This document shows positions 21,384-42,405 of a DNA stretch of 64,000 nucleotides, piece after piece. The notes below the pieces were generated by a model. It did not search any database and was not told the origin of the DNA. It saw nothing but the letters and a program-made list of their open reading frames with translations. Location: the NCBI GenBank assembly GCA_001303785.1, contig LJUJ01000010.1:1-64000 (forward strand), in the 5' to 3' direction. How positions within the stretch are numbered: the stretch's first letter is position 1; each line of letters opens with the position of its first letter. Position numbers and translations under genes: made by a program. Origin of the DNA: Caldifarciminota bacterium SM23_42. GTDB taxonomy: Bacteria > Hydrothermota > Tepidihabitantia > SM23-42.

Positions 21384-22418
21384 CTACTCAATTATACCAA
21401 CTTGGCGGATGTGGTCAATAGCCCCGTCGATTTTCTCGTCTAGATCTTCTGGATACCAATGGCCGATATTGGGTGTAACGATGAACTGGTGCGGTAGCCC
21501 TTCAGCCTTGAAGGTCTCAACCATCTTCTCGTGTAAAGGCAAACGTTCATCCATTTCAGTGGTTATAAGGGTACCCCGTATGCCGCGATTCTTCGTGTCC
21601 CTGATTCTTTCAGCAGTAAAACTCTCTGGCCAATCAGGGCATAAAACGACGAAACCGCGTGCTGGTATTGTGTTAGATAGGAGAACATCTAGAGCCGCTA
21701 CTCCACCCGAAGAAAAGCCACCGATTATGACATTTTCTGTATCCACCGGGTATTCATTGACTACTTTCTGATACGCACTGGCGATCTCCCTCTTGGCAAG
21801 TTCAATGTCTCCATGCCACCAAAATCCATTCATTGAAATGACCTGAGAAGATTGGGGATATGCGACAATGAATTCTTTCCGCATTTGTTGCGAATTCCAG
21901 CGGTCTTTAAATAGCTCGATATTTTCACCGCCGCCGTGAAGCGTAATGAAGAGCGGATAGGTTTTTTTTGGTTCAAAGTCTTCCGGCGTCACAACGAGGA
22001 GATCGGGTTTAGCTTTTTTCTGTGCTTCCTGCTTTAGAGCTTCACACTGGTCCCGGATATCCTGAAAACCTTTTTTCTCTCTGAGGGGCGCCCAAGGTTC
22101 AGGTTCGAAAGCCAACAGAGAGAACCACAAGCCGCGATCCAGGGCGTACTGTAAAGCATCAATACCTTTGTCGTATTGACCCAAACGCACATACAGCAAA
22201 GCCAGATTATATGAGTTATTAAACAGGTAATCGGGAAATTTCTCGCGTGCCCACAGCAACAGGTCGACGGCTTCCTCATATTTTTCCTTCTCGTAGAGTT
22301 CACCAAGATGTTTTCGCATATCCTGATAAGTAGTGAAAGACTTGTCATATTCTTGCGTGGAATATGCGATACCCACAAGGCACGCGATACATAGGAAAAG
22401 CGATGTGTTCATGCTCAT
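21384..22418 (-). CDS. Secreted alpha/beta-hydrolase esterase with TPR-like N-terminus
   Basis: 344 aa. Signal peptide residues 1-20. Residues 30-130 are helical TPR-like (YEKEKYEEAVDLLLWAREKF, LGQYDKGIDALQYAL). Residues 140-340 are an alpha/beta hydrolase: LHGGGENIELF oxyanion region, nucleophile elbow GGFSSGGVA, aspartate near TEMDERLP and histidine in NIGHWYPED, similar to polyhydroxybutyrate depolymerase or phospholipase/carboxylesterase enzymes. The start overlaps the preceding gene stop by 4 nt (ATGA), so the two are translationally coupled. Substrate unknown. Confidence 0.85.
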   Translation of the reverse strand: MSMNTSLFLCIACLVGIAYSTQEYDKSFTTYQDMRKHLGELYEKEKYEEAVDLLLWAREKFPDYLFNNSYNLALLYVRLGQYDKGIDALQYALDRGLWFSLLAFEPEPWAPLREKKGFQDIRDQCEALKQEAQKKAKPDLLVVTPEDFEPKKTYPLFITLHGGGENIELFKDRWNSQQMRKEFIVAYPQSSQVISMNGFWWHGDIELAKREIASAYQKVVNEYPVDTENVIIGGFSSGGVAALDVLLSNTIPARGFVVLCPDWPESFTAERIRDTKNRGIRGTLITTEMDERLPLHEKMVETFKAEGLPHQFIVTPNIGHWYPEDLDEKIDGAIDHIRQVGIIE

Positions 22419-24295
22419 TTCTCTCCTAGGTTATACGCCATTACTCTGTTATCGAAAAAAGTTGGAATGATGAGAAGGTCTCTGTCTGTGATATATTCGA
22501 AATCTGCACAATAGATACCAGGAACTGATAGATCGAGAATCTTCGTAACGTCGCCAGAGGGTGTGATTCTAAATACTCTTCCCTGCCAATGTGAGACTAG
22601 ATAATTGCCGTCTTTATTGATTTTAATGCCATCGATGAAGCCTGGCCCCAGATTGGCAATCTTGCGGACTTCTTTTGTGGCCAAGTCGACGGATTTAAGG
22701 CAGTAATCACCGCTGTTACCGAAGATGAGCATATTGCCTTGAATGAGTATGGCGTTTGGATCATTCACATCTTCGCCGACAAACCATTCCTCAGACTGAT
22801 CATCAAATACTCTATAGATAACATTCTTACGTGAGTCAGAGACGTAAATGCCGCCTTCACGATCAACGGCGATGTCGTTAAGCAGCCCGGATTGGGGAAT
22901 AGGGTGTCGATTTGTTATTGTACCAACTTCTAAGTCGATTTCTACAACTCCTCCTCGTTCGACTACGAGAAGCTTGTCTTCGTGAATTATCATGCCAAGC
23001 GGATTCTTCAACCCGGCAACCCAGTCTGCATTTCTTATCTTACCATCCATGGAGACCCGTGAGATCGACTGCTGTCCTTCGTGTCTGTCGAAATTGTAGA
23101 TATCGTAGTTTGATACGTAGAGCATGTCTCTGACCGAATCATACACAACAGATTCAGGTATCTTGAAGTCCACGGTTGATTCCCAGGCTTTTTCCACGCC
23201 TTCGTATTCAAAAACTGCGTCACCGTCCTGAACCATGAAACCCCAACCGCCGAAGGCTTCGGCAACTAGCAAGAGTATTTCGTTCTCGCCTTTTTCTAGC
23301 GGCAAGTACAAATTATCAAAGAAGCCAACGATACCCGCAAAGGATGGATCGCGTGATTGATAAGCGCTGTTACCGATGAAATAAGGCTCGCCATTGAGGA
23401 AAATGCTCACCGCATCGCTGTATCCGAACCTGAAATCCAGTATTCTTTCTTTGCCTGTGATAACAGTCGTTCTTGCCAGGATACAATCTGGTTGTCGACC
23501 AAGCCTTCCTGTGTAGCGGGCTACATCAACGAGACCGGATGGGTCACTACTGACATCCTGCCATTCGATTTGCGAAAGGAGTTCTTTGTCTGGATATTGC
23601 TCCAAATCGATGTCGTTGAGTTTGAATGGCTGTGATATTTGCCATTCGGTCATTATACCTGGTACGGTATCGACCAAAGGGGGCGGATCGAAATCCAGGT
23701 CATCGGTGATTTCATATTTGAAATTCGAAAAATAGGCAGTGCCATCAGCCATGAGTCCGATTGTACCTTTGCGCTGTCCGTGCCTGAGTTCGTGGATGAC
23801 TAATGTGGGCTGTTCTGTATTGTCCACATACACACGGGCTTGTTGCCCAAGAATCTCCATCTTGATGTGTACCCATTGGTTCGGTGGGAAATCTACTGCA
23901 GCGGTGAAGCCCTCACCGTTGTACAACTGCCAACTTGTAATACCGTTACTGACTGGCGTATATTGAAGAGCGTCCGGATATAGACTCGCTCGGTGTGAAC
24001 GTATGTAGAATCTTTCAAAGTTTTCCTCAGACTGCATCCGGAACACGATGCCTGGATAGGAGCGCACTTTGTGACCGGTCACTGCAATATCGATTTCGAT
24101 TATGCCATTCTCAAACTCTATGTCTTTGAGATAAGCATATCCGACAAAACTCTTTCTGCCGAGGTGCTCGGTTACTTGGCCATTTTGAATAACCCATTGG
24201 TCAGATTCGAAATCGAAGATGTCATCTTGAGCAGATGCGTTCGTTGTGAGAATCAATGAACCCAGAAAGATTACTGTGATTGTTTTCTCTCTCAT
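22415..24295 (-). CDS. Secreted LamG-like plus SMP-30-like propeller protein
   Basis: 626 aa with a signal peptide of 22 residues. Residues 25-200 are a concanavalin-like domain of the DUF1080/LamG type (GIVFRMQSEENFERFYIRSH, WVHIKMEILGQQARVYVDN). Residues 215-370 form a beta-sandwich with FLNGEPYFIGNSAY, like PA14 or sialidase linker modules. Residues 380-626 are NHL/SMP-30-like propeller blades (ESVVYDSVRDMLYVSN, NDIAVDREGGIYVSDS, IDGIKINKDGNYLVSHWQG). It has no C-terminal sorting tail, so it is probably periplasmic or conventionally secreted. Coupled to the downstream esterase. Confidence 0.78.
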   Translation of the reverse strand: MREKTITVIFLGSLILTTNASAQDDIFDFESDQWVIQNGQVTEHLGRKSFVGYAYLKDIEFENGIIEIDIAVTGHKVRSYPGIVFRMQSEENFERFYIRSHRASLYPDALQYTPVSNGITSWQLYNGEGFTAAVDFPPNQWVHIKMEILGQQARVYVDNTEQPTLVIHELRHGQRKGTIGLMADGTAYFSNFKYEITDDLDFDPPPLVDTVPGIMTEWQISQPFKLNDIDLEQYPDKELLSQIEWQDVSSDPSGLVDVARYTGRLGRQPDCILARTTVITGKERILDFRFGYSDAVSIFLNGEPYFIGNSAYQSRDPSFAGIVGFFDNLYLPLEKGENEILLLVAEAFGGWGFMVQDGDAVFEYEGVEKAWESTVDFKIPESVVYDSVRDMLYVSNYDIYNFDRHEGQQSISRVSMDGKIRNADWVAGLKNPLGMIIHEDKLLVVERGGVVEIDLEVGTITNRHPIPQSGLLNDIAVDREGGIYVSDSRKNVIYRVFDDQSEEWFVGEDVNDPNAILIQGNMLIFGNSGDYCLKSVDLATKEVRKIANLGPGFIDGIKINKDGNYLVSHWQGRVFRITPSGDVTKILDLSVPGIYCADFEYITDRDLLIIPTFFDNRVMAYNLGEK

Positions 24296-24325
24296 GAAAG
24301 CGTCTCCTATGATGAAGGGACTGGC

Positions 24326-26284
24326 TTATTCGATTGTAGTTATCTTACTATCTGCAAAAAGAAATCTGTCGCCTTTACTCGTAGCATAGGTGATCTGCGT
24401 TGTGTAACCCTTCGTGGCGGCTTCTTCGGCAAATTCCCTGTACCGGTACGTTGCATCTCGGGCATGCATGGGTAGGACAATGGTTGGATTTAGTTTTTCG
24501 ATCGCATAGTGCACACCCAGTTGTACTGATTCGGGCGTGCCTAGTCGGCATCCGACGATCGGAAAGAAGGCGAGGTCGATTTTCATGTTTTTGTCGGCCA
24601 GTGCATCGATTTCTGGCGTATAGGTGCCGGACATGTCCATAAACCCATTAGCGTGATCGCCTGCGTGGAATATTACCAATCCATCAACTTCAACCAAAAA
24701 TCCTACACCAGTGTCGTTTGACCTAATTGTTGTAACTTTCATATCATCGAGCGCCCGTTCGGTATGTGGCCCGATTAAAGTATACTCATTATCAATCTGA
24801 CTTGGTTGAAAGCCGAGAACGTATTCGATTTTGGGTAAGTCATTCTGCCATTCAAATATTGTTGGATCGTAATGATCGGTGTGATGATGTGTGACGAAGA
24901 CTGTTACATTCTCGTCCTTGATGGCGTCGGGAACGATGTAGCCACTGGCTAGTGAAGCATCAGTTGGTAATGGACCGTTTCGATCGGTGAAATAATCGAA
25001 AATCAACAGGTGATGCTGTGTTTTTATCGCCCATCCGCTGTGCCCCAGGTGCCAGATTATTGCTTCTTTGTCATTGAGTTCTTTCTTAAGATGTGTTGAG
25101 GTTGATTTGGAAATGTCCCTGCTTTTCTTGGTTGCGCCATGCGCAATTAGGAAAGATGTAATAGAATCGAATCCATGATGCAGCGTGTGATCAAGCGAAG
25201 TCTTACCTTCAATATCCTGTGCGTTTACGTCAGCGCCCTTGTTGACCAGGAGTTCTACGATGTCATCGTACCCATTGATCGCGGCGGTGTGCAGTTCGGT
25301 CCGTCCCCAATGATTCTCCTTAATGTTCAGTTGGGCATTTTGCGATAGCAGATATTCGGTTATTGCGGAATTGCCGTCACTGACCGCAATATGCAGAGGC
25401 GTCATTTCATCATTATCAGTAATATTGATCACGGCGCCATTTTCTACTAGTAACCTCACTATATTCAGGCTATCGCGTCTGACTGCACAATGCAGCGGTG
25501 TCTGGTATTCGGCGTGGCACGTGCAGGCTTCTTTCTGTTCGATTCTATGAGGATTAACTTTGGCTCCCCGGGATATCAAGAATTGTGTAATTTCGGCATT
25601 GCGGAACGCGGCATTGGATAGCGGTGTCCAGCCAAAATCGTTCATGGCATTTATGTCTAAACCATGGGCAAGAAGCAGCTCGGCAGTCTCGACAGAGCCA
25701 GCCCCAGCGATCATGTGAAGCGGCGTGCTATTGTTGTCGTTCCTAATATCGACCCGAGCACCGTTTTCGATAAGAAGTTCTGCGATTTCTGGCGTGCTGG
25801 CCAAGAAAAGGGGTGTCATACCGACAGCATTGCGGGAATTGACGTCTGCGTCGTTTTCCAGTAAATATCTCACCATATCAAGACGTCTTCGTGCGGTCGC
25901 GAAACTCAGCGGCGTGGCTCCGTTGTCGTCCTTGTCATTGATACTTGCGCCCTTTTTGCGTAACAATTGAACAATCTCTATGCTACCGTTGATTGCCGCA
26001 CAATGGATGGGTTGACTCCCGTCGATATCGCCGATACTGAGATCCGCACCTCTTTCCAACAATTCGTTAACGATTTCTGTATTTCCATTGAACACCGCGA
26101 TGTTCAGCGGTGTCATCCATTGATCGTCTTGGGCATTCAGTGATGACGGATTTTCTTTGAGTAACTCCTTCACCCTTTTAATGTCGTTATCATTCACAGC
26201 GTCATGGATTTCTGCCGCATCTGGTAATGTACTACCGAGCAACAGAAATACTACGATGACCAATAATTTCCTGGTATCGTGCAC
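24326..26284 (-). CDS. Secreted ankyrin-repeat plus metallo-beta-lactamase fusion
   Basis: 652 aa; GTG start after AAGGAGGT. Signal peptide residues 1-24. About eleven ankyrin repeats fill residues 25-395 (TPLHIAVSDGNSAITEYLL, TPLNIAVFNGNTEIVNELL); one repeat is stretched by a CTCH insertion near residue 260. Residues 410-652 are a UlaG-like metallo-beta-lactamase fold: WHLGHSGWAIKT, zinc motif THHHTDHYD, FHAGDHANG, LPMHARDA. All expected metal ligands appear present. The ankyrin array may recruit a protein substrate or partner. It lies 10 bp downstream of an exported propeller gene, so it shares the operon. Confidence 0.9.
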   Translation of the reverse strand: MHDTRKLLVIVVFLLLGSTLPDAAEIHDAVNDNDIKRVKELLKENPSSLNAQDDQWMTPLNIAVFNGNTEIVNELLERGADLSIGDIDGSQPIHCAAINGSIEIVQLLRKKGASINDKDDNGATPLSFATARRRLDMVRYLLENDADVNSRNAVGMTPLFLASTPEIAELLIENGARVDIRNDNNSTPLHMIAGAGSVETAELLLAHGLDINAMNDFGWTPLSNAAFRNAEITQFLISRGAKVNPHRIEQKEACTCHAEYQTPLHCAVRRDSLNIVRLLVENGAVINITDNDEMTPLHIAVSDGNSAITEYLLSQNAQLNIKENHWGRTELHTAAINGYDDIVELLVNKGADVNAQDIEGKTSLDHTLHHGFDSITSFLIAHGATKKSRDISKSTSTHLKKELNDKEAIIWHLGHSGWAIKTQHHLLIFDYFTDRNGPLPTDASLASGYIVPDAIKDENVTVFVTHHHTDHYDPTIFEWQNDLPKIEYVLGFQPSQIDNEYTLIGPHTERALDDMKVTTIRSNDTGVGFLVEVDGLVIFHAGDHANGFMDMSGTYTPEIDALADKNMKIDLAFFPIVGCRLGTPESVQLGVHYAIEKLNPTIVLPMHARDATYRYREFAEEAATKGYTTQITYATSKGDRFLFADSKITTIE

Positions 26285-26294
26285 AAATACCTCC

Positions 26295-27713
26295 TTATTG
26301 CACCTTTACTACTTTCCCAACAATTGCACCCTGGGTTTCAATAAAGTAAATCCCGGGTGTAAGATGATTGCGGTTGACGATTCTACCCGTAATGTCGTAA
26401 ATTCTGTACTGCTCTTTTCCTGGAAATCCCAATTGACCACTGATGATTTCAGTGTAGAACTCGGATTTGTTAACATCACCATGGCTATTTTCTGTAACTC
26501 CGACATCGGGTTCAGTTTTGATTAGCCAGAAATCGTTAGCCCCGCTGCCGAATGAAGTGGTATGACCGCCAATGATGTACCCGCCGTCGGCATTCACGTA
26601 GAGCGCGAGTGCTGCATCGTGGTTTGCCCCGCCGTAGCGTTGTGTCCAAACCGTGTCACCGAACGAGTTTGTACGCAATAGCCAAACGTCTTCGTAGCCT
26701 TGGCCGGCAATTATGTATCCATTATCTGGCGTCTGGTATACGTCGAACCCGAAATCCTGGTAGACCCCACCATAGACTTTTGTCCAGAGTGTGTCACCTG
26801 CAGAATCTGTTTTGAGTAGCCATACATCACCGGCATTCCACGGAGGAGTACCGTTGATGTATCCGGCGACGACATATCCATTATCAGTTGTTACATCTAC
26901 TCCGTACCCCACATCGTCTAGACTACCACCGTAGGTTTTGGTCCACACCGTGTCACCGTCGGCTTCGATTTTCACAAGCCAGATATCCTTACCGCCCATA
27001 CCAAAAGAACTCGTAGTCCCAGTAATAATATAGCCGCCATCCGATGTTGGGTGAATCGATATGCCGTAATCTTCGCCGGTCGCGCCGTATTCCTTTGTCC
27101 AAATTGTATCAAGCGTTGCATCGGTTTTCAGGATCCACAGGTCGCCTTTGATCCAGCCAGAAGGGCCATCCTTGTAGCCGACAAAAATGTATCCGCTGTC
27201 AGATGCTTCACAGAAGGCATATGCAACATCTTGCATGGGCGTAGCATAAACGGCGGTGTGCTCGGCAATGCCGTCCGCATCAGTTTTTATGAGGTATACG
27301 TTTTTGCCACCGCCACCAAATGTCTCGGTGTACGCGGCGATTACGTAACCGCTATCCGACGTCTGGCGTACGAAATGGGCGCCGTCCATTGACGCGCCCC
27401 CAAACGTTCTGGTCCATACGGTATCACCATTCGCGTCGACCTTGATGAGATAGGCGTCTTGCAGACCGGCCCCGTAAGAGAAAGTGTAGCCGGTGGCGAC
27501 GTAACCGCCGTCGAACGTTTCGCATACTGAATATGCTACATCAACATCGACCCCGCCATAGGTGCGTGACCAGAGGGTGTCGGGAGGGTTTCCATGGAGC
27601 AGGAATTGAGAAGTGGGAAGTAAGAAGCAAAGCAACAAAAGGGGCACGAAGCGTAGTATGAGCTCCGTAGTACGAGCTCTGTAGTGCGTAGTAAGGTAAA
27701 TCATGTAACGCAT
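26295..27713 (-). CDS. Exported TYGG-repeat propeller with sorting tail
   Basis: 472 aa. The start ATG 27713 has AAGGAG 6 nt upstream. The N-terminus is unusually long and basic before the signal (THYRARTTELILRF, then LLLLCFLLP), because a tandem repeat of about 15 bp lies in this part of the gene. Eight repeats of about 50 residues follow: GDTVWTKTYGG, DNGYVVAGY, DIWLVKIEADG, a Kelch/WD-like propeller common in exported proteins. The tail has IYDITGR, GIYFIETQG and ends VGKVVKVQ. Probably surface displayed. 13 bp downstream of the next FG-GAP gene. Confidence 0.87.
   Translation of the reverse strand: MRYMIYLTTHYRARTTELILRFVPLLLLCFLLPTSQFLLHGNPPDTLWSRTYGGVDVDVAYSVCETFDGGYVATGYTFSYGAGLQDAYLIKVDANGDTVWTRTFGGASMDGAHFVRQTSDSGYVIAAYTETFGGGGKNVYLIKTDADGIAEHTAVYATPMQDVAYAFCEASDSGYIFVGYKDGPSGWIKGDLWILKTDATLDTIWTKEYGATGEDYGISIHPTSDGGYIITGTTSSFGMGGKDIWLVKIEADGDTVWTKTYGGSLDDVGYGVDVTTDNGYVVAGYINGTPPWNAGDVWLLKTDSAGDTLWTKVYGGVYQDFGFDVYQTPDNGYIIAGQGYEDVWLLRTNSFGDTVWTQRYGGANHDAALALYVNADGGYIIGGHTTSFGSGANDFWLIKTEPDVGVTENSHGDVNKSEFYTEIISGQLGFPGKEQYRIYDITGRIVNRNHLTPGIYFIETQGAIVGKVVKVQ
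27645..27700. repeat. Tandem 14-15 bp repeat within signal-peptide coding region
   Basis: CGTAGTATGAGCTC, CGTAGTACGAGCTC, TGTAGTGCGTAG lie in direct succession. Similar GTAGTGCG/ACGCTACA units appear in non-coding arrays at 20866 and 52855. Confidence 0.6.
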
Positions 27714-27726
27714 CGATGTCTCCTTA

Positions 27727-29058
27727 TCATTGTACTTTGACTATCTTCTGGATTATTTCATCAGTGGTTTTCAGAAAATAGACGCCGGGCGAGGGATTGA
27801 TTGACTTAATTTCTCGACCCGCGATATCGTAAAGCTGAAAGCTCTGAGCACCGGGAAATCGTAAGGGGCCGTGTACTATTGTTGGGGTGATACTCTGAAT
27901 CGGCATCGTGTTGTTATCATCTTCTTCAACCCCGACCAGGTCACTTTCGTACCAGTATATGGTATTCGTGTTGGTTGCCGCTGCGACGACGTCAACGTCA
28001 CCGTCGCCATCGATATCCTCTGCATATACCGGCCATGCACCATCGCAATTTCCATCGATTACGTGTTCGGTCCAGGATATTGGTATGCTGCCGTCGTTGC
28101 TCCACCATGCAACGTCGTCGAGTATGTCTGAGGTGCCCAGGACATCGATGTGACCATCATTATTGATATCCCTGCAAAAAACACCGAGCGCGCCGTAAAA
28201 CGATCCGTCAATGGTTTGCTGTGTCCAATTAATCGGGCTGCCTCCGTCGTTGCGCCACCATGTTATATCATTCGCATTATAAGCGGCGGCAGCGACATCG
28301 GTATCACCATCGGTGTCAATATCGCAGGCACAGACCATATGTGCTCCGACAAAGTTCTGGTTGATCGGATACTCGGTCCATGTCGAGTCTCCATTGTTAC
28401 GCCACCAAGTAACAGCATTGGCTAGCAAGGCAGCGCCCACTACGTCAATCAGGCTGTCACCGTCGAAGTCGGCTGCCCTGATCGAACGGGCACCGTCGAA
28501 GTTGTCGTCGATCGTGTGTCGTGTCCAGCCTATCGGGACCAGACCATCGTTTTCGAACCATGCGATCTCATCAATGGCTGCGGCGGCACCCAATACGTCT
28601 ATATCTTCGTCACCATCCATATCAGCGGCAGATATTTCGTGGGCATTGGAAAAACCGGTCGCTATGGTGTATTTTGTCCATTGGATGGGGTCGCCGCCGC
28701 CGTTTTCCCACCAAGCCAATTCATTACCGTGCCAGGCACTCGACAGCACGTCGATATCGCCATCACCATCGATGTCTTCGGCAGAGACAAAACATGCGCC
28801 GAGGAAACTCATCTGTACTAATTCATATGTCCAGGATATGGGGTCGCCGCCGTCATTTAACCAGGAACAAACACGACTAGCATCAAATCCCGTACCCAGG
28901 ACATCGACATTATCGTCTCCATTAATGTCTTGGGCATGCACGGAACAGGCACCGCTCAGGTTGCCAGTGATGGTGTGCCGGGTCCAGCCTATTTGGGCGA
29001 GTAACATAGTTGGTACAAAAACCGTTATAAGCATGAAACCCACGAGTGTTCTTTTCAT
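27727..29058 (-). CDS. Exported FG-GAP/VCBS-repeat protein
   Basis: 443 aa from ATG 29058, where GGGAG precedes and a signal peptide (MKRTLVGFMLITVFVP...LLAQ) begins; the open frame extends further upstream but without either. About eight repeats of 45 residues with calcium-binding loops (DIDGDGDIDVLSSA, DMDGDEDIDVLGAA) and WWxNDG / WTRHTI segments, typical of FG-GAP/VCBS propellers. The tail carries LYDIAGR, PGVYFLKT and ends KIVKVQ. Member of the exported-protein operon. Confidence 0.87.
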   Translation of the reverse strand: MKRTLVGFMLITVFVPTMLLAQIGWTRHTITGNLSGACSVHAQDINGDDNVDVLGTGFDASRVCSWLNDGGDPISWTYELVQMSFLGACFVSAEDIDGDGDIDVLSSAWHGNELAWWENGGGDPIQWTKYTIATGFSNAHEISAADMDGDEDIDVLGAAAAIDEIAWFENDGLVPIGWTRHTIDDNFDGARSIRAADFDGDSLIDVVGAALLANAVTWWRNNGDSTWTEYPINQNFVGAHMVCACDIDTDGDTDVAAAAYNANDITWWRNDGGSPINWTQQTIDGSFYGALGVFCRDINNDGHIDVLGTSDILDDVAWWSNDGSIPISWTEHVIDGNCDGAWPVYAEDIDGDGDVDVVAAATNTNTIYWYESDLVGVEEDDNNTMPIQSITPTIVHGPLRFPGAQSFQLYDIAGREIKSINPSPGVYFLKTTDEIIQKIVKVQ

Positions 29059-29078
29059 GATTCTTCTCCCTGTTTTGT

Positions 29079-30350
29079 TTATCTGGCTTTCACCACTTTT
29101 CTTAAGTCTTCTTCGATTTTGACAAAATAGATACCAGGTTTGAGATTCACTGGAGAAACGGTCCGGCCTGCAATATCGTATACATAGCACTGTTTTCCTG
29201 AGGGGAGTCTGAGGTGTCCGTTGATGACGGTCGGACCAAAGTCAAAATGATTCACTGATGCATTACCACCTTCGTCGACACCGACGAAGTCGCTCTCCCA
29301 CCAGGCGATTTCATCAATCTGAAGCGCCGAACCTAATACATCCTTGTCACTATCACCATCAACGTCGATTGCAAAAACCGAATGGGCATAGTTGAATGTA
29401 TTCGTTATTACACCGCTAGCACTACCCCAGTGGGCAATCGAGTTGGCATACCACGCAGCGCCCAGTATTTCCATACTACCATCATTGTCCAGGTCTGCGG
29501 CATGAACAGCACCGGCGCCTGCAAAGCTGTTGGTCACGGTGTGCTGTGTGAAGCTCTCGTTACCATCATTCTCCCACCAAGCTATCGTATTTGCATTGTA
29601 AGCAGCGCCGATGACATCAGTATCGTTGTCATTATCGAGGTCAGCAGCGTATACTGCAGTGGCGCCATTGAAGTTGCCGTTGATGACGTGCAGGCCGAAA
29701 TTTTCATTACCGTCATTTTCCCACCAGGCGATGTCGTCACCAATGCCGGCGGCGCCCAGGACATCAACGTCGCCATCACTGTCCACATCGGTGGCAAACA
29801 CCGAACTCGCATCTTGAAAGATATCAATAATGATGTGCTGTGTGAAGACCTGGTTCCCGTCGTTTTCCCACCAGGCGATGGTGTTTGCCGTCCGCGCCGC
29901 GCCGAGCACATCGACATCACCGTCTTGATCGAGGTCGGTGGCATAAACAGAGTAGGCACCGCCAAAAGTGCTGGAAATTATGTGCTGTGAGAATCCGCTC
30001 GCCGTGTTTTCCCACCATGCGATTGTATTCGCGTGGTATGCGGCACCGAGCACATCGCCATCACCATCGTCGTCTAAATCAACGGCATACACACAAGCAG
30101 CGCCAGTAAAGGAATTCGATAATGTGTGCTCAGTGAAATTTTCATTGCCGTCGTTCTCCCACCAGGCTATCGCGTTGGCTTCCCATGCCGCGCCGACAAC
30201 GTCGATGTCGGTGTCAGTATCAAAATCGGCGGCGTGTGCCCAGAGTGCGCCGTCGAAGTCATCGGTAATGGTGTGTTTGGTCCAGTTAATTTGCCCGAAG
30301 GCGGGTGTGACCAGGAAAAGGAATAATGGTATACATATGATTCGATTCAT
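29079..30350 (-). CDS. Exported FG-GAP/VCBS-repeat protein
   Basis: 423 aa, ATG with GAGGAG upstream. Signal peptide ending AFGQ, then INWTKHTITDDFDGALWAHA, the same opening as its neighbours. Repeats have the form DLDNDNDTDVIGAAYNANTI, AWWENDGNESFTQHTV, with D-x-D-x-D metal loops. Tail: VYDIAGR, PGIYFVKIEED, ends RKVVKAR. Closely related to the genes at 27727, 33778 and 35085, indicating local duplication. Gap of 20 bp to the next gene. Confidence 0.88.
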   Translation of the reverse strand: MNRIICIPLFLFLVTPAFGQINWTKHTITDDFDGALWAHAADFDTDTDIDVVGAAWEANAIAWWENDGNENFTEHTLSNSFTGAACVYAVDLDDDGDGDVLGAAYHANTIAWWENTASGFSQHIISSTFGGAYSVYATDLDQDGDVDVLGAARTANTIAWWENDGNQVFTQHIIIDIFQDASSVFATDVDSDGDVDVLGAAGIGDDIAWWENDGNENFGLHVINGNFNGATAVYAADLDNDNDTDVIGAAYNANTIAWWENDGNESFTQHTVTNSFAGAGAVHAADLDNDGSMEILGAAWYANSIAHWGSASGVITNTFNYAHSVFAIDVDGDSDKDVLGSALQIDEIAWWESDFVGVDEGGNASVNHFDFGPTVINGHLRLPSGKQCYVYDIAGRTVSPVNLKPGIYFVKIEEDLRKVVKAR

Positions 30351-30364
30351 CCTATCTCCTCTCG

Positions 30365-31933: not shown

Positions 31934-33763
31934 TTATTTTCCTCCGTTGTTGATAAAGATTATGCTCTTCCTTTCGACAGAATGGTCATCTTCCAATTGG
32001 CATAAATAGATGCCACTCTTGATATGTCTGCCCTGGTTATCACGACCATCCCAACTTATCGATGATGCATGACTCAAGATGCATGATTCAAGATTAAAGG
32101 ATTTTACCAGTCGACCGAGCACATCGAATATTCGGAGTTGGATTTCACCCGGAACCGGATGATGAAATGAAATTTCTGTTTTTTCACTGAAAGGATTGGG
32201 GCAGCTGTGCAATACCATTCCCCTGCTTGCCGGATGCTTTTCAGTCTCTGAGATACCAGTGGTACCGATGAACACCGTGTCCCGTTTTGAGTGGTCGACA
32301 TTGGCTTTGATTATAACTGTATCATGTTGGTACACGCCTACACAGTTGTGCAGATCATTACTCGTCGTATCGATATATGCAGTGCCGTGATACATGCCTG
32401 TTGCGGTGTCGGTTTCGATGAGTGCTACGCCAATACCGTACGTATCTTTGTTGCTACATATGATCACCAGCGCTGGATCTACAAAAGCGTTGTTCCAGTT
32501 TGTTCCCTGTAATTCAATGAAAAGCGTATCGCCATAGGATAAGACGCCGGTCTGGGGTGTGGTATACGTGCTGTCCGACATGACGGCCACCGAACTTACA
32601 GTCAAGGGTTCGCCGGGTGCATCGCTGTCAGGTGTGCTGAGGAAAGGAGTGAAATTGACCTGTCCGAATATCAATGAATCTATTGCTGAAGAGTCATTTG
32701 TCCACCAGAAGTTAGATGTCATGTCCAAGTTATAGGATGTATTATTTATGACTTCATATCCGCCTTGCTGATAAGAGTTGTAATAGATATTATTATGATT
32801 TGCGGTCATGGCGCCCGAAGTCTCAGTCAGATACAGCCCGTCCACATTATCAATAATGGCATTCATGTAGAGCTCGGCGGCTGAATTGCCAAGCGTTCTG
32901 GTGCCTCCACCGTATTGGCCAGCGTTCCTTGCTATTGTATTATTGTATATAACCGGTATGCAGGAGTAGCAGCAGGCAATGCCGGCGCCGTTTTGCATGC
33001 AAGTATTATCGATGATGACATTTGCGACTATCGCAGGAGACGAGGTCATATAGCAATCTATGCCGCCGCCCGTTTCCAGAGCGTGATTTTTTCTTACCAG
33101 GTTACGCTTGATGAGCGGGGCTGAATGGTCGTTGAATATTCCACCCCCATATCTCGCGGTGTTGTGCGCAACTGTGTTGCCTTCAATAATAGAGCCTGAG
33201 TAGTAGCAGTAAATACCACCGCCCATATAAGACAGCGCCGTGTTTTCGGTGATAAGGTTATCTATTATACTGCTGTTGTCGTAATCGCAATAGATGCCAC
33301 CACCACAGCCGACATAGCCGGTAGCGGCGTTGCCTTTGATTATGTTGTCGCTTATCTTCATGAATGAATTGTTGCAGTAGATACCGCCCGCGTCGAAGGC
33401 GCTGCCGCCGGTAATCGTAAACCCGTGGATGACGGTAGTGCTATCGAGTGCCTGACAATCAAACACTCGGTCGCTTGCGTTTGCGTCGATCGTGGTTGCC
33501 GATGGTCCCGATTGACTGATCAGGACAACACCATTCTGCATATTTATTGGAAATACTTCGCCGGATGCGGTATTGTAAGTTCCGGCCGCAACCATCACCG
33601 TGTCACCATAACCTGCCGAGTCTTCCACTGCCGTCTTTAGCGTGGGAATATCAGCAGGGACATGCCAGGTTATAGCCTGTAACACTGGGTTGATTCCCAG
33701 CGCGGAAAAAATACACATGGAGATAACAAGGCGTCGTTGGTTACCACGTTGCATGTCGTTCAT
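31934..33763 (-). CDS. Exported right-handed beta-helix protein
   Basis: 609 aa, ATG with GGAGGT upstream, signal peptide ending LQA. Opens with ITWHVPADIPTLKTAVEDSAGYGDTVMVAAGTYNT, the usual start of surface beta-helix proteins. Residues 95-330 are PbH1-type repeats (GGGIYCDYDNSSIIDNLIT, YGGGIFNDHSAPLIKRNLV). Then a beta-sandwich (SSVAVMSDSTYTTPQTGVL) and a FlgD-like tail (CPNPFSEKTEISF, IFDVLGRLV, SWDGRDNQGRH, KSGIYLCQL). This tail class differs from that of the flanking operon genes. No lyase active site recognised. Confidence 0.86.
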   Translation of the reverse strand: MNDMQRGNQRRLVISMCIFSALGINPVLQAITWHVPADIPTLKTAVEDSAGYGDTVMVAAGTYNTASGEVFPINMQNGVVLISQSGPSATTIDANASDRVFDCQALDSTTVIHGFTITGGSAFDAGGIYCNNSFMKISDNIIKGNAATGYVGCGGGIYCDYDNSSIIDNLITENTALSYMGGGIYCYYSGSIIEGNTVAHNTARYGGGIFNDHSAPLIKRNLVRKNHALETGGGIDCYMTSSPAIVANVIIDNTCMQNGAGIACCYSCIPVIYNNTIARNAGQYGGGTRTLGNSAAELYMNAIIDNVDGLYLTETSGAMTANHNNIYYNSYQQGGYEVINNTSYNLDMTSNFWWTNDSSAIDSLIFGQVNFTPFLSTPDSDAPGEPLTVSSVAVMSDSTYTTPQTGVLSYGDTLFIELQGTNWNNAFVDPALVIICSNKDTYGIGVALIETDTATGMYHGTAYIDTTSNDLHNCVGVYQHDTVIIKANVDHSKRDTVFIGTTGISETEKHPASRGMVLHSCPNPFSEKTEISFHHPVPGEIQLRIFDVLGRLVKSFNLESCILSHASSISWDGRDNQGRHIKSGIYLCQLEDDHSVERKSIIFINNGGK

Positions 33764-33777
33764 AATACCTCCACAGA

Positions 33778-35076
33778 CTATCTTATCTTCACAAACTTTC
33801 TCACGATCCGTGTATCGTACTCAATGAAATAGATTCCGGGCGTCAGGTGTTCTGATTCAACCTTCTTGCCTGTGATGTCATAAATGTTATATAATTTCTG
33901 CTTGGGTAGACTGAACGGACCGCTTATTATTGTCGGTAGGTACTGAATTTCTTTCACGATATTGGTATCATTTTCTTCCACCCCAATCAGCTGATTCTCC
34001 CACCAGGTAACCTTGTCGGCGCCCATTGCTGCTCCAACAACATCGCAGTCGCCGTCATCGTCTAGATCCTCTACGCAAACGTGATTTGCGCCCAGGAAAC
34101 CATCGACTATGGAGTACTGCGTGAAGGTCTGGTTTCCATCATTCTGGTACCACCTTATTGCATGACTCATTTTTGCCGCACCGACTATATCAACATAGCC
34201 GTCGGCATTGAGGTCTATTGCGCGAACGCTACGCGCCTGGTAGAAGTTGGGATCGATTATGTGTCTTGTGAAACTCTGATCTCCTGCATTCTCGAACCAA
34301 GCGATCTGCCCGGCACATGAAGCCGCCGCAATGTCGGTGTCGCCGTCGTTGTCAATGTCTTCGGCAGCCAGAAAATTAGGATATCCCCAACCAGCGCTGA
34401 CAATGTGTTCGGTGAAAGATTGGCTGCCATTGTTTTCGAACCACAGTATCATAGTGGAACCGGGGCCAGCTCCAATAACGTCAATATCGGTGTCTCCATC
34501 TATATCTACTGGGATAAGGCATGCAGCACCCTGCAGGTACGGTTTGATGGTGCGTTCGGTGAATGATTGATTCCCGTCATTCTCAAACCAAACCATCTTG
34601 CCTGCTTGGCAGGACGTGACGAGCAGATCCATGTCATTATCAAGGTCTAAATCAGTAGGAAACACATAATTCGGCGGCCCCCAGTTGGCAACAATGGTGT
34701 GATGGCTAGAGAAATTCTGATTCCCATCATTCTCCCACCATGCTAAGGTGTCGCAGAGGAAGCCAGCACATACTACATCTATGTCGGTATCGCCATCAAG
34801 ATCGACCCCGCAGATGCCCTTCGGTCCCAAGAAATTGTCACAAATTGTGTGTGCAGTGAAATTCTGACTGCCATCATTTTCCCACCAGGATACGCAATGG
34901 CCATCATAAGCGGAACCGAGTATATCGAAATCATCATCACCATCCAGGTCGATTGGTAATGCATACCATGCACCATTGAAGCTATCCGACACCATATGCT
35001 CTACCCAGTTCAGTTGAGCGGGCAGAGACACCGGTAAAAGTAAGCTTTGGATAAGCAGCCAAGGCAGGCTTTTTAT
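33778..35076 (-). CDS. Exported FG-GAP-repeat protein, apparent ATA start
   Basis: About 432 aa. AGGAGG overlaps the stop of the upstream gene and is followed 4 nt later by ATA (35076-35074), then KSLPWLLIQSLLLPVSLPAQ, a complete signal peptide if ATA is read as the start. No ATG, GTG or TTG occurs at a usable distance; the first upstream one (35208) would lie 120 bp inside the preceding gene. The body has eight FG-GAP repeats (DLDGDTDIDVVCAGF, AWWENDGNQNFSSH). Tail: IYDITGK, PGIYFIEYDT, ends KFVKIR. Probably an ATG to ATA change; expression may be reduced or lost. Confidence 0.8.
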   Translation of the reverse strand: MKSLPWLLIQSLLLPVSLPAQLNWVEHMVSDSFNGAWYALPIDLDGDDDFDILGSAYDGHCVSWWENDGSQNFTAHTICDNFLGPKGICGVDLDGDTDIDVVCAGFLCDTLAWWENDGNQNFSSHHTIVANWGPPNYVFPTDLDLDNDMDLLVTSCQAGKMVWFENDGNQSFTERTIKPYLQGAACLIPVDIDGDTDIDVIGAGPGSTMILWFENNGSQSFTEHIVSAGWGYPNFLAAEDIDNDGDTDIAAASCAGQIAWFENAGDQSFTRHIIDPNFYQARSVRAIDLNADGYVDIVGAAKMSHAIRWYQNDGNQTFTQYSIVDGFLGANHVCVEDLDDDGDCDVVGAAMGADKVTWWENQLIGVEENDTNIVKEIQYLPTIISGPFSLPKQKLYNIYDITGKKVESEHLTPGIYFIEYDTRIVRKFVKIR

Positions 35077-35084
35077 GATTCCTC

Positions 35085-36485
35085 CTAACGTATAACAAAG
35101 AATTTCTGCGTTTGCTTGCGGTCTCCGGCAGTCAAGTGCAAAAAATATACTCCAGATGGTAACTGTGAAGCGTCGACCGAAAGCATGTAGGTGCCAGCTT
35201 GACACCATTGGTCAGCGAGTTGTCGCGTTCGCTGTCCGCTTCCATTGAAGATCGACAAACAAACATCAGTATCAAAAGGGATTTCGTATGTAACGGAGAA
35301 TGAGTGTAGGCGGTTGTGATTGACCGATAGGTGAAACGATGTGGGTGTTTCATCTTTGAGTTCACTCGCTCCGGGAATGAGATCATTCTCCCACCAGGAT
35401 ATGCGGCTGCCAAACTGGGCTGCTCCCAGTACGTCGATGTCTCCGTCAGATTCCATGTCGATGGTCTGTATACCGGTGGCGCCGACAAAGTTGTTGTGTA
35501 TGGTATGTTTTACCCATTGAATTGGAGTACCGCCAGTATTCTCCCACCAGGCAATCTCGTTACTGTTTATTGCGGCAGCCAGGACATCAACATCTGCATC
35601 ATCGTCAAAATCTGCAGTACGAACCGCGTGCGGTCTGAAGAAATTCGAGCCAATTAGATGTTGTGTGAAGTTCTCGTCACCGTCATTTTCAAACCACAGG
35701 ACTTGGTTTATGTAACATACGGTCGCGAGCACATCCATATCACCATCAGAGTCTACATCGTCGACGTATGCAGAACTGGGACGTGCTGATGTACTTAGAA
35801 TCACATGTTTGGTGAAGTTTTGATTGCCGTCGTTCTCAAACCAGGCGACCTCTCCGGCGTAACTGGCAGTGCCAATCAAGTCAATGTCTCCATCAGAGTC
35901 GAGATCGGCGCCGCAAACGCTGTTTGCGTGATCCCAGGTGTCGGTCACTATATGGTCGGTAAAAACAAGACCACCTTGATTTTCAACCCAGCCTATTCGG
36001 TTCATGCCACCTTCGCAACAGGCGACTAGCACGTCGGTATCCTCGTCTGTATCGACATCAGCGACAGATATATAGCTGGCGTACGGCCAGGCAGCGATGA
36101 TGTGCCGGACAAATGTCTGATCTCCCTGATTTTGCCAAAGCTCGACGCCGTTCGTCTGTGAGGCGCACAGGATGTCGACGTGGCTATCTTCATCGATGTC
36201 AAGCGCATGAACCACCATGGCGTAATATGAGATGCTGGAGATGTCGTGTTGCTGATACGTGAAATTGCCCGTATTTTCCCACCATGTGACGGTGTGTCCT
36301 AGGCGGCCCGAACCGATGACATCGATGTCGGTATCGCCGTCAACATCGATTCCGAACGCGCTCCATGGATTGTAGTAATTCTGTGCGACGAGATGCTCTG
36401 TGAAAGTGATGTCGGCGATACCCAAGCTAACGAGGTAAATCACGCCACATATGAATTTGCAAATACTATTAATTGATAGCTGTAC
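35085..36485 (-). CDS. Exported FG-GAP-repeat protein, non-standard start
   Basis: About 466 aa. AAGGAGG at 36497-36491 is followed by CGGTC and then GTA; no ATG, GTG or TTG lies at normal distance, and the TTG at 36536 is inside the upstream gene without a signal peptide. From GTA the protein begins VQLSINSICKFICGVIYLVSLGIAD, a plausible export signal. Eight FG-GAP repeats follow (GIDVDGDTDIDVIGSG, VDDVDSDGDMDVLATV, WFENDGDENFTQHLI). The tail is of the longer class: SVNHNRLHSFSVTYEIP, IFNGSGQ, PSGVYFLHL, ends FFVIR. The start is uncertain. Confidence 0.75.
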   Translation of the reverse strand, partial: VQLSINSICKFICGVIYLVSLGIADITFTEHLVAQNYYNPWSAFGIDVDGDTDIDVIGSGRLGHTVTWWENTGNFTYQQHDISSISYYAMVVHALDIDEDSHVDILCASQTNGVELWQNQGDQTFVRHIIAAWPYASYISVADVDTDEDTDVLVACCEGGMNRIGWVENQGGLVFTDHIVTDTWDHANSVCGADLDSDGDIDLIGTASYAGEVAWFENDGNQNFTKHVILSTSARPSSAYVDDVDSDGDMDVLATVCYINQVLWFENDGDENFTQHLIGSNFFRPHAVRTADFDDDADVDVLAAAINSNEIAWWENTGGTPIQWVKHTIHNNFVGATGIQTIDMESDGDIDVLGAAQFGSRISWWENDLIPGASELKDETPTSFHLSVNHNRLHSFSVTYEIPFDTDVCLSIFNGSGQRTRQLADQWCQAGTYMLSVDASQLPSGVYFLHLTAGDRKQTQKFFVIR

Positions 36486-36498
36486 GACCGCCTCCTTG

Positions 36499-38634
36499 TT
36501 AGAAGTAGATAAGATACTTGACTTTGATTGCTGCAATCGTGTATACAGGTTCTAACTTGTCTCCAAAACGTTCTCGGAAATCATTGAGTGCTACATAAAG
36601 CCAACTCTTGGGTCGAAAGTTCCAGGAAAAGAGAAAACCGAATCGATTATTGATGAACTCTGTCTCACCGATACGGGTTTCTGGTGTCTGCAGAAGAATG
36701 TCATTGAAAATTGCCAGGCTCTTGTCGGCGCTGAAGCGGATATCGAGTCTTGGTCTGATCCGAGGGTGCATCGCGATGATGGTGTTAGTGGTGTCCCATT
36801 CGACCCACAGATTGCCGGATAACACGATGCTCATGGGCGGTATTATTGAATAGCCGAAGAAGAACCAATGGGATCCCTGGTAAGCCAAGAAGTTCCGCAG
36901 GTAATTCCAGCTGTAGTTGTAATTGCAGCCAAAATTGATGTTATTGCCCTTGATTAGACCCCACATCGAGAAATCAAGGCTGCGGTAGGTGTAATTCGTG
37001 TCGGCTTCATAGTACTTGCCGGCGTATAGGTCCAGGGAAAGACCCCAACGGTTGCGAAAAGCAGGGTTGATCTGCAAGCCGGCGATCTTCGACCAATTTG
37101 TGTCACCGGGTTCCTGAAGGATGTGAATACCCGGAGCAATATAAAACCACCGCAGGAATCCTTCCTGGAAAACTTTCGAAGGCCCGGTGAAAAAGTACAA
37201 TCGTTTCCTGCCTGCCCAGGGTACAAATCCGATATCACTGACGTCAAACGAATCCCGCACAATTTCGACGGCGGCTTTGGTGAAGAAGTTGCCTATGAAA
37301 CCACGGTAACCGGATGAGACTGCCCAATCCTGCTTACCGCTGTGGTCGCTGAAGGCACCCTGAACGATGACTTGATCGGGTCCGCTTCTGTAGACTCCCT
37401 CCAGTCCGAGTGCGTAGTTGTAATTGTCTCGGTCGACGGTTGTTCCGCTGAAGTGCAGTCCGATGTCCGAGTTATCCATGAACCGGCGCTGGGCGCGGAA
37501 GACACCGAACCATCGATTCGGTTCATAGAGCGTATCTTGCTCTGTCGTATCTGCAAATTCATCGGTGTAGGCACCCAGTAAGCCAATATTCCATTTTTGT
37601 GCATTGTTCGTCACCTTCAATCCGCCAAGAATAGGAACCACCTCGCCATCGAGTGATTTACCCAACTTGCGTGAATAGAAGATCTCCAATGGGTAGAAAA
37701 AGACGGGGCCATCTTGACCCAAGTCTGACATCCGGAAGATGTCCCTGCCTTCCAGAAAGAAAGGTCTTCGTTCGTCCAGATATGTCGGGTAACGCGACAA
37801 ATTCACCGTGAACGGATCAGACTCAATTTGCGCAAAGTCCGGCAAGATAGTGGCGTTTATGGTTGTTTGGGGTGTGACGTCCCACTTGAGGTTGAGGCTG
37901 AGATTCGGTTTGAATTCTTCAGAAACCGAATCCCTGGCCACGTAGTATCGTTTGTCAAATCGTACATATCCTTCAGGATATAGCTCGAAATAGTAGCCGG
38001 TGGCCTGAGGATCTATGTTTTTAAGGATTCCCCAGCGCGACACCATGTCACCCTCGCCTTGCAACACCTCGGTCCAGTAATCGTCTTCCCGGTTATATGC
38101 GATGTGACGCATAAACTGAATACGCCATTCGTTCAAACCTTTTTTGTAGCGAATAGATTTGAAGGGGATCTTGATTTCTATGTCCAGGCGATCGTCGTAG
38201 ACCTTCACGCCGCGAAACCAAACGCCTTCCCAGGTGTCGTCGAATATGCGGCCGTCATCGAAAATCCAACCGTCCCAGAAAAGCTGACTGGCGAAAACAA
38301 GAAAGTAGTACCCCGTTGTTTTGCTGCCAAACGGATCAATGCTCACCCGAACATAGTCTTCATCGGTCGTGAAGCAAGCAATGGGCTTGTGGTTTTCAGC
38401 GTAGCAACGGAATGCGACATAGAGGTTATTTTTGTCCTGAAGGACGTATACCACGGTGCTCTCCGTGGGTTCGGTCCTTTCGTAAGGTATGTGCTGCACG
38501 AAGTTGTACGCAGAATCAGACTGCTGCCATACTTCTTCGATCACGCCGTCAATGTGCGGCGCGGTCTCAGTGAATCTCACCTCGACGGTTTTTTCATTTG
38601 CCATTAGCACAACAAGTAATAATGCAACGTGCAT
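36499..38634 (-). CDS. CBM9-like/DUF5916 outer-membrane protein
   Basis: 711 aa, ATG with GGGAGG upstream. Short signal peptide. Residues 18-200 are a CBM9-like domain (APHIDGVIEEVWQQSDSAYNF, NNLYVAFRCYAE). Residues 215-711 are a DUF5916-type beta-barrel (LPDFAQIESDPFTVNLSRYP, ERRPFFLEGRDIF, FYSRKLG) ending in an aromatic residue. Proteins of this type are outer-membrane components often linked to peptidases, transporters or glycan use. It is the first gene of the exported-protein run, 13 bp before the next coding start, so it may provide the outer-membrane part of the system. Confidence 0.88.
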   Translation of the reverse strand: MHVALLLVVLMANEKTVEVRFTETAPHIDGVIEEVWQQSDSAYNFVQHIPYERTEPTESTVVYVLQDKNNLYVAFRCYAENHKPIACFTTDEDYVRVSIDPFGSKTTGYYFLVFASQLFWDGWIFDDGRIFDDTWEGVWFRGVKVYDDRLDIEIKIPFKSIRYKKGLNEWRIQFMRHIAYNREDDYWTEVLQGEGDMVSRWGILKNIDPQATGYYFELYPEGYVRFDKRYYVARDSVSEEFKPNLSLNLKWDVTPQTTINATILPDFAQIESDPFTVNLSRYPTYLDERRPFFLEGRDIFRMSDLGQDGPVFFYPLEIFYSRKLGKSLDGEVVPILGGLKVTNNAQKWNIGLLGAYTDEFADTTEQDTLYEPNRWFGVFRAQRRFMDNSDIGLHFSGTTVDRDNYNYALGLEGVYRSGPDQVIVQGAFSDHSGKQDWAVSSGYRGFIGNFFTKAAVEIVRDSFDVSDIGFVPWAGRKRLYFFTGPSKVFQEGFLRWFYIAPGIHILQEPGDTNWSKIAGLQINPAFRNRWGLSLDLYAGKYYEADTNYTYRSLDFSMWGLIKGNNINFGCNYNYSWNYLRNFLAYQGSHWFFFGYSIIPPMSIVLSGNLWVEWDTTNTIIAMHPRIRPRLDIRFSADKSLAIFNDILLQTPETRIGETEFINNRFGFLFSWNFRPKSWLYVALNDFRERFGDKLEPVYTIAAIKVKYLIYF

Positions 38635-38683: not shown

Positions 38684-39271
38684 CTATAACGAATCAACTA
38701 GATGTTTGCCGGCATCGAAGGCTTGTTTCAAATACTCTGGTTTACTCGTAATGGCATCTTGATCCATTAATTCGGCGAAGAATAGCATATCTAAGATGTC
38801 GATACCGAGCGAACGCATGCACCGCTTATAGAACTCGACGAGCACTTGTGCTTCATAATCAGTATCCTTCTCGCCTAATGTAGTGATGATTACAGCCTTC
38901 TTACCGGCAATCAGATGATTGTTTTCCTTGTGATGAAAGAAATAAAGTCGGTCAATAAATGTCTTCAAGAGACCGGTTATCTCACACCAATAAATGGGGG
39001 AAGCAAAAACGAGGATGTCCGATTTCGTGATTGCATCACGCAAATCGGACATATCGTCCTGAAAGTGACAGGTTTTTTCTCTCAGGCACTGACAACAGCC
39101 AATACAATTGTGTATTACCAGATTCCGCAGCATGGCATTGCGTACCGCCAAACCTGAAGCAGAAACGCCCCGTATGAATGAACTCAAAATGGCATCCGTG
39201 TTACCGTTTTCGCGTGTCGATCCATTGATAATGAGAACACGTCTAGCCAGACTTCCCCCTTTGTTCTTCAT
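38684..39271 (-). CDS. NADPH-dependent FMN reductase family protein
   Basis: About 195 aa flavodoxin-fold protein: phosphate loop INGSTRENGNTDA, FASPIYWCEITGLLKTFIDR, and a cysteine-rich insert (CIGCCQCLREKTCHF) typical of iron-sulfur-flavoprotein-like or multimeric flavodoxin reductases. It binds FMN and reduces small acceptors. The start is uncertain: ATG 39271 is used, but AAAGGGGG nearer the fold suggests initiation close to CTG 39253. It lies 49 bp upstream of the outer-membrane gene on the same strand, so it may be co-transcribed. Confidence 0.85.
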   Translation of the reverse strand: MKNKGGSLARRVLIINGSTRENGNTDAILSSFIRGVSASGLAVRNAMLRNLVIHNCIGCCQCLREKTCHFQDDMSDLRDAITKSDILVFASPIYWCEITGLLKTFIDRLYFFHHKENNHLIAGKKAVIITTLGEKDTDYEAQVLVEFYKRCMRSLGIDILDMLFFAELMDQDAITSKPEYLKQAFDAGKHLVDSL

Positions 39272-39676
39272 TAGACATTGAAAGGACAATGCTGGCGAGC
39301 TGAAGAGAGCCTTGCGTGGCTTCCTTGTACATATGTCTAAATTCTTTAGTTCGTTTTGGAAACGACATATAATATTGTAACCAATCGGCGCTGGATGTCA
39401 AGGCCCCAACTCTCTTGACAGCCTTCGAGCTGGGTGCTTCGCCTGGTCTTATTCTTAACATATCAGAGATACAGTTTGGTGAGAAGCGGGGCGCCGACCG
39501 TGCCCCGGCAATCAGGATTGGTATCACTAGTCAGGTCGTACGCATATGTCGCTCGGGTTATCATCATAAATTCTTGGCTGGGTGGTGCTTGGGCATGTAG
39601 AGAAGAGCCTGCCATTGTGAGTTTTGAACTGTGGATGGTAGGCGAGCGATAATCCATGACAGGCTCCTCTTTACTG
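39272..39676. other. Intergenic stretch, nothing recognised
   Basis: About 400 bp between the MMPL transporter stop and the FMN reductase. Open frames of 60-94 codons exist on both strands but have no signal, motif or clear ribosome binding site. No terminator or repeat from this window was found in it. Confidence 0.5.
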
Positions 39677-42388: not shown

Positions 42389-42405
42389 GTCTCATTCCTC
42401 CGGTT

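Follow-up and report, generated by a model that had tools for sequence, protein, structure and literature searches.

The window analysed here is the whole stretch of 64,000 nucleotides from Caldifarciminota bacterium SM23_42, a bacterium of candidate division WOR-3, and it belongs to contig C33 of a 2.53-Mb genome that is 97% complete. Its subject is a run of eleven minus-strand open reading frames (ORFs) at 21384-38634, all co-directional, which a preliminary description made from the sequence alone had listed in full, and whose domain families we assigned with Pfam and NCBIfam profile scans (Table 1). The run consists of an outer-membrane barrel, seven repeat proteins (six propellers and one beta-helix) and three enzymes. 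The earlier domain calls were right except for a gene named Kelch-like, which has no Kelch match and encodes a delta-60/SBBP-type propeller. Each of the seven repeat proteins has at its C-terminus a sorting tail of the kind used by the type IX secretion system (T9SS), and the barrel, the ankyrin-metallohydrolase, the LamG protein and the hydrolase carry none.

Table 1 Genes of the run and the elements upstream of it (pLDDT, predicted local distance difference test)
Feature	Name	Position	Strand	Evidence
Sigma-70-like site TTGACA-16-TACAAT, candidate operon promoter		39374-39401	-	11/12 consensus matches; upstream of FMN reductase
FMN reductase/flavodoxin-fold gene		38684-39289	-	Pfam FMN_red E 1.4e-22; 49 bp upstream of barrel gene
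DUF5916 outer-membrane barrel with N-terminal CBM9-like domain		36499-38634	-	DUF5916 56.2 bits; model pLDDT 85
FG-GAP propeller, group A, long canonical T9SS tail	FG35085	35085-36536	-	FG-GAP_3 3.2e-39; TIGR04183 28.2 bits
FG-GAP propeller, group B, short tail	FG33778	33778-35208	-	FG-GAP_3 8.5e-39
Right-handed beta-helix, long canonical T9SS tail		31934-33763	-	Beta_helix 7.6e-17; TIGR04183 27.3 bits
FG-GAP propeller, group C, short tail	FG30365	30365-31933	-	FG-GAP_3 2.9e-27; orthologues 68% in G002 and G003
FG-GAP seven-bladed propeller, group D, short tail	FG29079	29079-30350	-	FG-GAP_3 8.4e-41; model pLDDT 87.6
FG-GAP propeller, group E, short tail	FG27727	27727-29190	-	FG-GAP_3 2.3e-32
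Delta-60/SBBP-type propeller, short tail (101 bits)		26295-27713	-	NCBIfam delta_60_rpt and Lepto_SBBP_lipo, both below cut-off
Signal peptide, ankyrin repeats and metallo-beta-lactamase-fold hydrolase (Ank/MBL), no tail		24326-26284	-	Ank 1.7e-70; Lactamase_B_3 6.2e-10
Signal peptide, LamG-like 3-keto-disaccharide-hydrolase and SMP-30/gluconolactonase-like propeller, no tail		22415-24295	-	PF06439 8.7e-7; SGL 1.5e-11
Signal peptide, TPR and alpha/beta hydrolase (esterase/depolymerase-like), no tail		21384-22418	-	Abhydrolase_2 8.8e-6

The tails are of two lengths. Those of the first FG-GAP protein and the beta-helix pass the T9SS type A model TIGR04183 (cut-off 23), and the other five are a homologous version shortened to about 57 residues, from which the NPF motif and about 22 central residues are missing and whose consensus is TII-x-G-x-L-x-LP...YDI-x-GR-x-V...PGIYF...DG...KVVK-x-R. 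In a profile-profile comparison the short form aligned to the long one at E 2.9e-13, the short form skipping about 22 residues between GR-x-V and PGIYF. In scans of the five full short-tail proteins, the tail is matched by no model of Pfam or NCBIfam. When short tails were scanned by themselves, 23 of 25 gave a match to TIGR04183, the best at E 1.8e-5, with the one example given below the cut-off. The short tail as an already named domain was rejected, because no model passes in the full proteins and the matches of the tail alone are to TIGR04183/PF18962. Researchers have described T9SS substrates, in Bacteroidota and some other FCB (Fibrobacteres-Chlorobi-Bacteroidetes) phyla, as needing a seven-stranded, immunoglobulin (Ig)-like C-terminal domain (CTD) of 70-100 residues (PMC12618676, PMC11285876). 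The two long-tailed members fit this length and the short tail, with its 57 or so residues and about five modelled strands, does not, so that we call the short tails a variant and not standard members.

Short tails occupy about 25 near-full-length places in the host genome, on FG-GAP, SBBP and lactonase-type propellers, NosD-type helices, and serine beta-lactamase-family, M23-like and cleaved-adhesin proteins. The match ends at most two residues from the C-terminus in all 57 examples, and the terminal lysine, G-x-Y-F and D-x-x-G-R are near-invariant. Among 150 relatives, strong short tails (E < 1e-20) occur only in the host's family and in G025, G027 and G096, and several T9SS-bearing relatives are without them. 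That the two tails are equivalent in function is argued most strongly by conserved bodies with swapped tails: FG35085 and the beta-helix are long-tailed here, and their orthologues in the same genus and in the genus of G010 are short-tailed, with bodies 58-63% and 54-57% identical, respectively, and the change at the border between body and tail. The outgroup genus is short-tailed, so that replacement is the simplest explanation of the long tails in the host genome. These comparisons of sequence argue that the long and short tails are interchangeable. If the short tail were a decayed or repurposed Ig-like domain and not an export signal, its lack of the NPF motif and of the WDG strand region of type A tails would be accounted for, as would its scores under library cut-offs in full proteins; this explanation is nevertheless very improbable, because it fits poorly with the strong conservation that unrelated passengers show at the very C-terminus, with the near-invariant residues and with the exchange in two orthologous pairs. 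A second short-tail group lies on the plus strand of the window at 2923-4464, 8046-9581 and 9699-11030 (two SBBP propellers and one protein without a Pfam match), interleaved with long-tail proteins at 7462-8010, 12036-12626 and 12939-14018.

The host genome also encodes core components of the secretion system, namely SprA (377.6 bits, cut-off 200; G000:C5:35323-39456), PorU (449 bits, cut-off 420; G000:C31:26277-29462) and PorV (199 bits, cut-off 90; G000:C24:60966-61904). The three are likewise present in most of the 26 relatives scanned, and none of 14 control genomes gave a score over the cut-off. PorV is the known carrier for type A tails. In the literature, T9SS has been stated to be exclusive to Bacteroidota (PMC12618676) or possibly present in other FCB phyla, among which WOR-3 is not listed (PMC11285876), and our search found no paper in which T9SS and WOR-3 appear together. 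We tentatively propose, at somewhat less than even confidence, that the short tail is a distinct minimal T9SS sorting signal of about five strands, confined to one WOR-3 family and a few neighbours and freely exchanged with the canonical tail, and that the T9SS it serves may lack the known motor and ring.

The bodies that carry these tails are mostly propellers. PF13517 repeats were found in the FG-GAP proteins (FG-GAP_3 E 1e-27 to 1e-41), each of which has 5-7 calcium-type D-x3-D-x3-D loops. In the model of FG29079, 28 propeller strands form seven blades, followed by a low-confidence linker at residues 355-371 and then a tail of about five strands with pLDDT near 80; its Foldseek matches are propellers, including integrin alpha and the N-acetylglucosamine (GlcNAc) lectins PVL (20% identity) and AANL (17%), which have the highest sequence identities in the list. 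The group letters of Table 1 come from a tree of the propellers, in which E'' stands apart as a group of its own, FG27727 being the window protein closest to it, and in which some members from G012 are weakly resolved and were assigned by best match. According to this tree the propellers are old, separate orthologous groups common to several genera, which have been gained, lost and reordered. A recent tandem expansion was therefore rejected, and the preliminary suggestion of variable binders, if taken to mean a hypervariable array, is not supported; the set acts as a pool of ancient paralogues from which every species draws its own selection in its own order.

Genes of the run are tightly packed. 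The gaps of mostly 0-30 bp reported at first were largely right, as the genes lie -4 to about 30 bp apart with starts supported by Shine-Dalgarno sequences or, for two genes, ATA/ATT starts, but the two large overlaps of about 100 bp were start-site artefacts of over-long ORFs. From the FMN reductase to the barrel and onward, the corrected gaps are 49, ~25, 8, 14, 0, 14, 20, 13, 10, 30 and -4 bp, and most genes have their own ribosome-binding site. The gene at 27727-29190 has a GGGAG box and an ATG at 29058, with a signal peptide there, and this ATG is probably its true start. In 35085-36536 an AAGGAGG box is followed by ATT near 36473, and in 33778-35208 an AGGAGG box is followed by ATA at 35076; these are probably the starts, neither being ATG, GTG or TTG, and the orthologues have ATG. 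The FG35085 branch in the tree is also long (0.6 vs ~0.1), a hint of relaxed constraint in the host genome. An FMN reductase gene adjoins the barrel in G002, G003, G004, G007 and G010 as well, and the run probably starts one gene earlier than first read, with the FMN reductase as a twelfth gene; the site at 39401-39374 is a candidate for the operon promoter. Scans for promoter-like sites (35 inside the run vs 30.5 in shuffles) and terminators (15 vs 18.0) found no excess, and thus neither split the run nor prove a single transcript, which we infer from the spacing and the conserved gene order.

Gene order and content are partly shared by four congeneric species, and in rearranged form they are found again in two further genera. 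Conserved neighbourhoods were found in six relatives (G002, G003, G004, G007, G010 and G012), and the presence of the same families in the same neighbourhood in all six is more than chance. The order is barrel-A-C-B-D-E-E''-delta60-(BPL_N-like)-... in G002 and G003, barrel-helix-A-E-E''-delta60-BPL_N-M28-Ank/MBL-LamG-hydrolase in G004, barrel-helix-A-B in G007 and barrel-A-C-barrel-E-delta60-D-beta-lactamase-Ank/MBL in G012. G010, of another genus, has two blocks 110 kb apart, barrel-A-helix at 1.05 Mb and E-D-E''-delta60-Ank/MBL-BPL_N-LamG-hydrolase at 0.93 Mb, and G005 has the barrel only. The unit is thus modular and its barrel separable. Gene order in relatives, which the preliminary description had named as a check, is conserved enough to reject the possibility that it is kept in no relative, and the co-directional, tightly packed unit of exported proteins with paralogous propellers was borne out as conserved beyond the species. 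A BPL_N/glutamine-amidotransferase-like gene recurs in the clusters of relatives (L062:9737-10540, L064:11842-12645, L066:7330-8133 and L141:10337-11164; Pfam-confirmed in L062 and L141) and is absent from the host's copy.

The barrel passes DUF5916 (PF19313) well above its gathering score of 22.6. Its CBM9-like domain spans about residues 16-205 in the predicted structure (Foldseek 1i82, TMt 0.76), followed by a barrel part of about 22-24 strands; CBM9_1 was matched in 19 of 19 barrel N-termini, and an invariant ERRPFF segment near 288-293 lies in a low-confidence region of the model. Among named genomes, the nearest are bins assigned to candidate division WOR-3, one of which, CP070705.1, has a barrel that is 80% identical. 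A PDB sequence search gave no match and no close solved relative, and a literature search on DUF5916 found no paper. A second DUF5916 barrel of the host genome, on contig C57 (L123:3-2066, minus strand), lies next to a short-tail FG-GAP gene at 3238-4542 (plus strand) and is divergently oriented to it. In G001:C1, a single-contig bin, the barrel orthologue is split into 451156-452004 and 607255-607890 (L112, L115), 155 kb apart, by either rearrangement or misassembly. Directly upstream of the run, at 39677-45007, lies a conserved unit of TetR, LolA-like, outer-membrane protein and MMPL transporter genes; the last three also adjoin a barrel homologue in L094, and G005 has neither that unit nor propellers at the locus.

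The run had been read as led by the barrel; in the sense of a functional pair with the propellers, this we could not uphold. G005, a species of the same genus, keeps the barrel without propellers, the two blocks of G010 are far apart, and a short-tail gene lies within 4 kb of only 10 of 33 barrel homologues examined, several of these 10 being one orthologous locus, and of none of the other 23; an obligatory partnership was therefore rejected as a general rule, and a dedicated barrel-propeller machine is not supported. A related explanation gives the DUF5916 barrel the specific task of carrying or anchoring short-tail proteins, as PorP/SprF-like barrels do for type B substrates in Flavobacterium. 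Cargo genes beside a cognate barrel have a precedent (PMC12618676, PMC9143113), and three or more distinct arrangements (that of the orthologous locus and those of G012 and G009) place a barrel next to short-tail genes. However, DUF5916 barrels are present in G015, which has no short tails, and in 117 of 150 relatives, strong short tails are restricted to few lineages, many short-tail clusters have no barrel nearby, and the short tail is type A-like, with PorV as known carrier, which makes this role quite improbable.

The same observations bear on a broader alternative, in which the run is a cargo island without a shared job, its tailed paralogues gathered by tandem duplication, tail exchange and reshuffling, and its barrel and enzymes neighbours and not partners. 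The solitary barrel of G005, the separate propeller-enzyme block of G010 and the 23 barrel homologues would all be expected, as would short-tail clusters elsewhere without a barrel and the accessory enzymes that differ among the clusters of relatives (M28 peptidase, serine beta-lactamase family, BPL_N-like). Nevertheless, G010, of another genus, has the core succession propellers - delta-60 - Ank/MBL - LamG - hydrolase again and G012 has part of it, the LamG gene is a rarity, present in just 4 of 61 genomes, and lies beside the Ank/MBL and hydrolase genes wherever its surroundings were read, and the gaps are tiny between genes that mostly have their own ribosome-binding sites; we regard the island as possible and rather doubtful.

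The tail-less enzymes lead to a further alternative, close to that first suggested for the locus. The ankyrin-metallo-beta-lactamase-fold protein is predicted from its sequence to be periplasmic, and the alpha/beta hydrolase scores 43 bits against NF050058, under the cut-off of 150. In a polysaccharide-utilisation-like uptake, propellers would bind a glycan, the CBM9 barrel would import oligomers, and periplasmic enzymes would finish the breakdown. The CBM9-like domain, the GlcNAc lectins with top identities among the propeller matches, and the signal peptides on the tail-less LamG/SMP-30 and hydrolase proteins agree with this picture. It is weakened by the Pfam scan, which found no SusC/SusD pair, glycoside hydrolase or TonB-dependent receptor inside the unit, by the weak sequence similarity to solved CBM9 (E 0.025), and by the top Foldseek matches of the barrel, which are assorted large barrels with low TM-scores. 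We consider such uptake unlikely; polymer processing is a plausible guess, and the CBM9-like domain and lectin-like fold hint at a glycan as the target, with no SusC/D or glycoside hydrolase present.

We consider it quite probable that these genes form an operon of T9SS cargo in a WOR-3 bacterium, which serves surface binding and includes periplasmic enzymes. One transcript from near 39374 would comprise the FMN reductase, the barrel, the seven tailed repeat proteins and the three enzymes, as spacing and conserved order suggest, and all products but the reductase would reach the periplasm by Sec, judging from signal-peptide-like N-termini read by eye. There the CTD of the seven tailed proteins would be recognised, and the proteins would pass through SprA with a PorV-type carrier and undergo processing by PorU, so as to arrive on the cell surface or outside; the homology of the tails and the presence of SprA, PorU and PorV point to this route. 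Five of the seven would use the shortened type A-like tail interchangeably with the long one, as the orthologue swap indicates. In the last and weakest step, the calcium-loop FG-GAP propellers may be the surface binders, and the barrel with its CBM9-like domain and the three tail-less periplasmic enzymes may handle the material brought in. T9SS export and surface display of the propellers and the helix are fairly well supported, and action of the barrel and enzymes on bound material is weakly supported.

Several points weigh against the cargo operon. All evidence is computational. The GldM and GldN models, for motor and ring, matched none of the 26 genomes in a scan without a positive control. 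According to published work, secretion was blocked by a deletion in the beta3-beta4 region of RgpB and the seven-stranded architecture is considered indispensable (PMC11285876), so that a CTD of about five strands may not be functional as such. Moreover, two tailed genes have no ATG, GTG or TTG at the ribosome-binding site and may be poorly expressed or decaying here. The combination of SprA, PorU and PorV without a GldM/GldN match in these WOR-3 genomes possibly reflects a T9SS whose motor and ring are of another kind or have diverged strongly. The preliminary interpretation is supported in its packed unit of exported proteins and its paralogous propellers, and is not supported in the barrel as functional partner or in variable binders taken as a hypervariable array; it had missed the T9SS tails and the core genes.

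Compared with known systems, the cargo operon is closest to T9SS type A cargo (TIGR04183/PF18962), with which it shares the C-terminal position, the G-x-Y-F and terminal K motifs, the YDxxGR core, two members over the TIGR04183 cut-off, and a genome with SprA, PorU and PorV. It differs in its five short tails (about 57 residues), in which the 22 or so central residues and the NPF motif are absent, and in its host, which is WOR-3, outside Bacteroidota, and gave no GldM/GldN match (26 genomes, no positive control). Type B CTD cargo beside a PorP/SprF-like barrel (Flavobacterium, Porphyromonas) likewise consists of exported repeat proteins encoded beside an outer-membrane barrel, whereas the operon has type A-like tails and a DUF5916 barrel with a CBM9-like domain and about 22-24 strands, often without cargo genes; a type B/PorP-SprF pair (TIGR04131 tail) was rejected because NCBIfam gives TIGR04183 for the tails and the barrel matches DUF5916 only, and no PorP-like structure was in its top 50 Foldseek matches. 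A Bacteroidota polysaccharide utilisation locus (SusC/D) resembles the operon in co-directional surface binders, an outer-membrane protein and periplasmic hydrolases. The operon is without SusC/D and glycoside hydrolases, and its binders are FG-GAP propellers with T9SS-type tails; membership was excluded because Pfam found no SusC/SusD pair or carbohydrate-active enzymes among its genes. FG-GAP/VCBS seven-bladed propellers such as integrin alpha and PVL lectin have the same seven blades and D-x3-D-x3-D calcium-type loops, whereas the operon proteins are only about 10-20% identical to solved structures and carry a sorting tail.

What would surprise a specialist is the shortened, exchangeable tail and its host and not the composition of the operon, the use of propellers being ordinary. 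A tail clearly shorter than the described T9SS CTD is found on dozens of proteins in a different phylum, and it has been swapped naturally with the standard tail twice in this operon, which amounts to a natural experiment on what the signal cannot do without. The tails also suggest surface display as the role of a large group of otherwise unannotated propeller proteins of uncultured bacteria.

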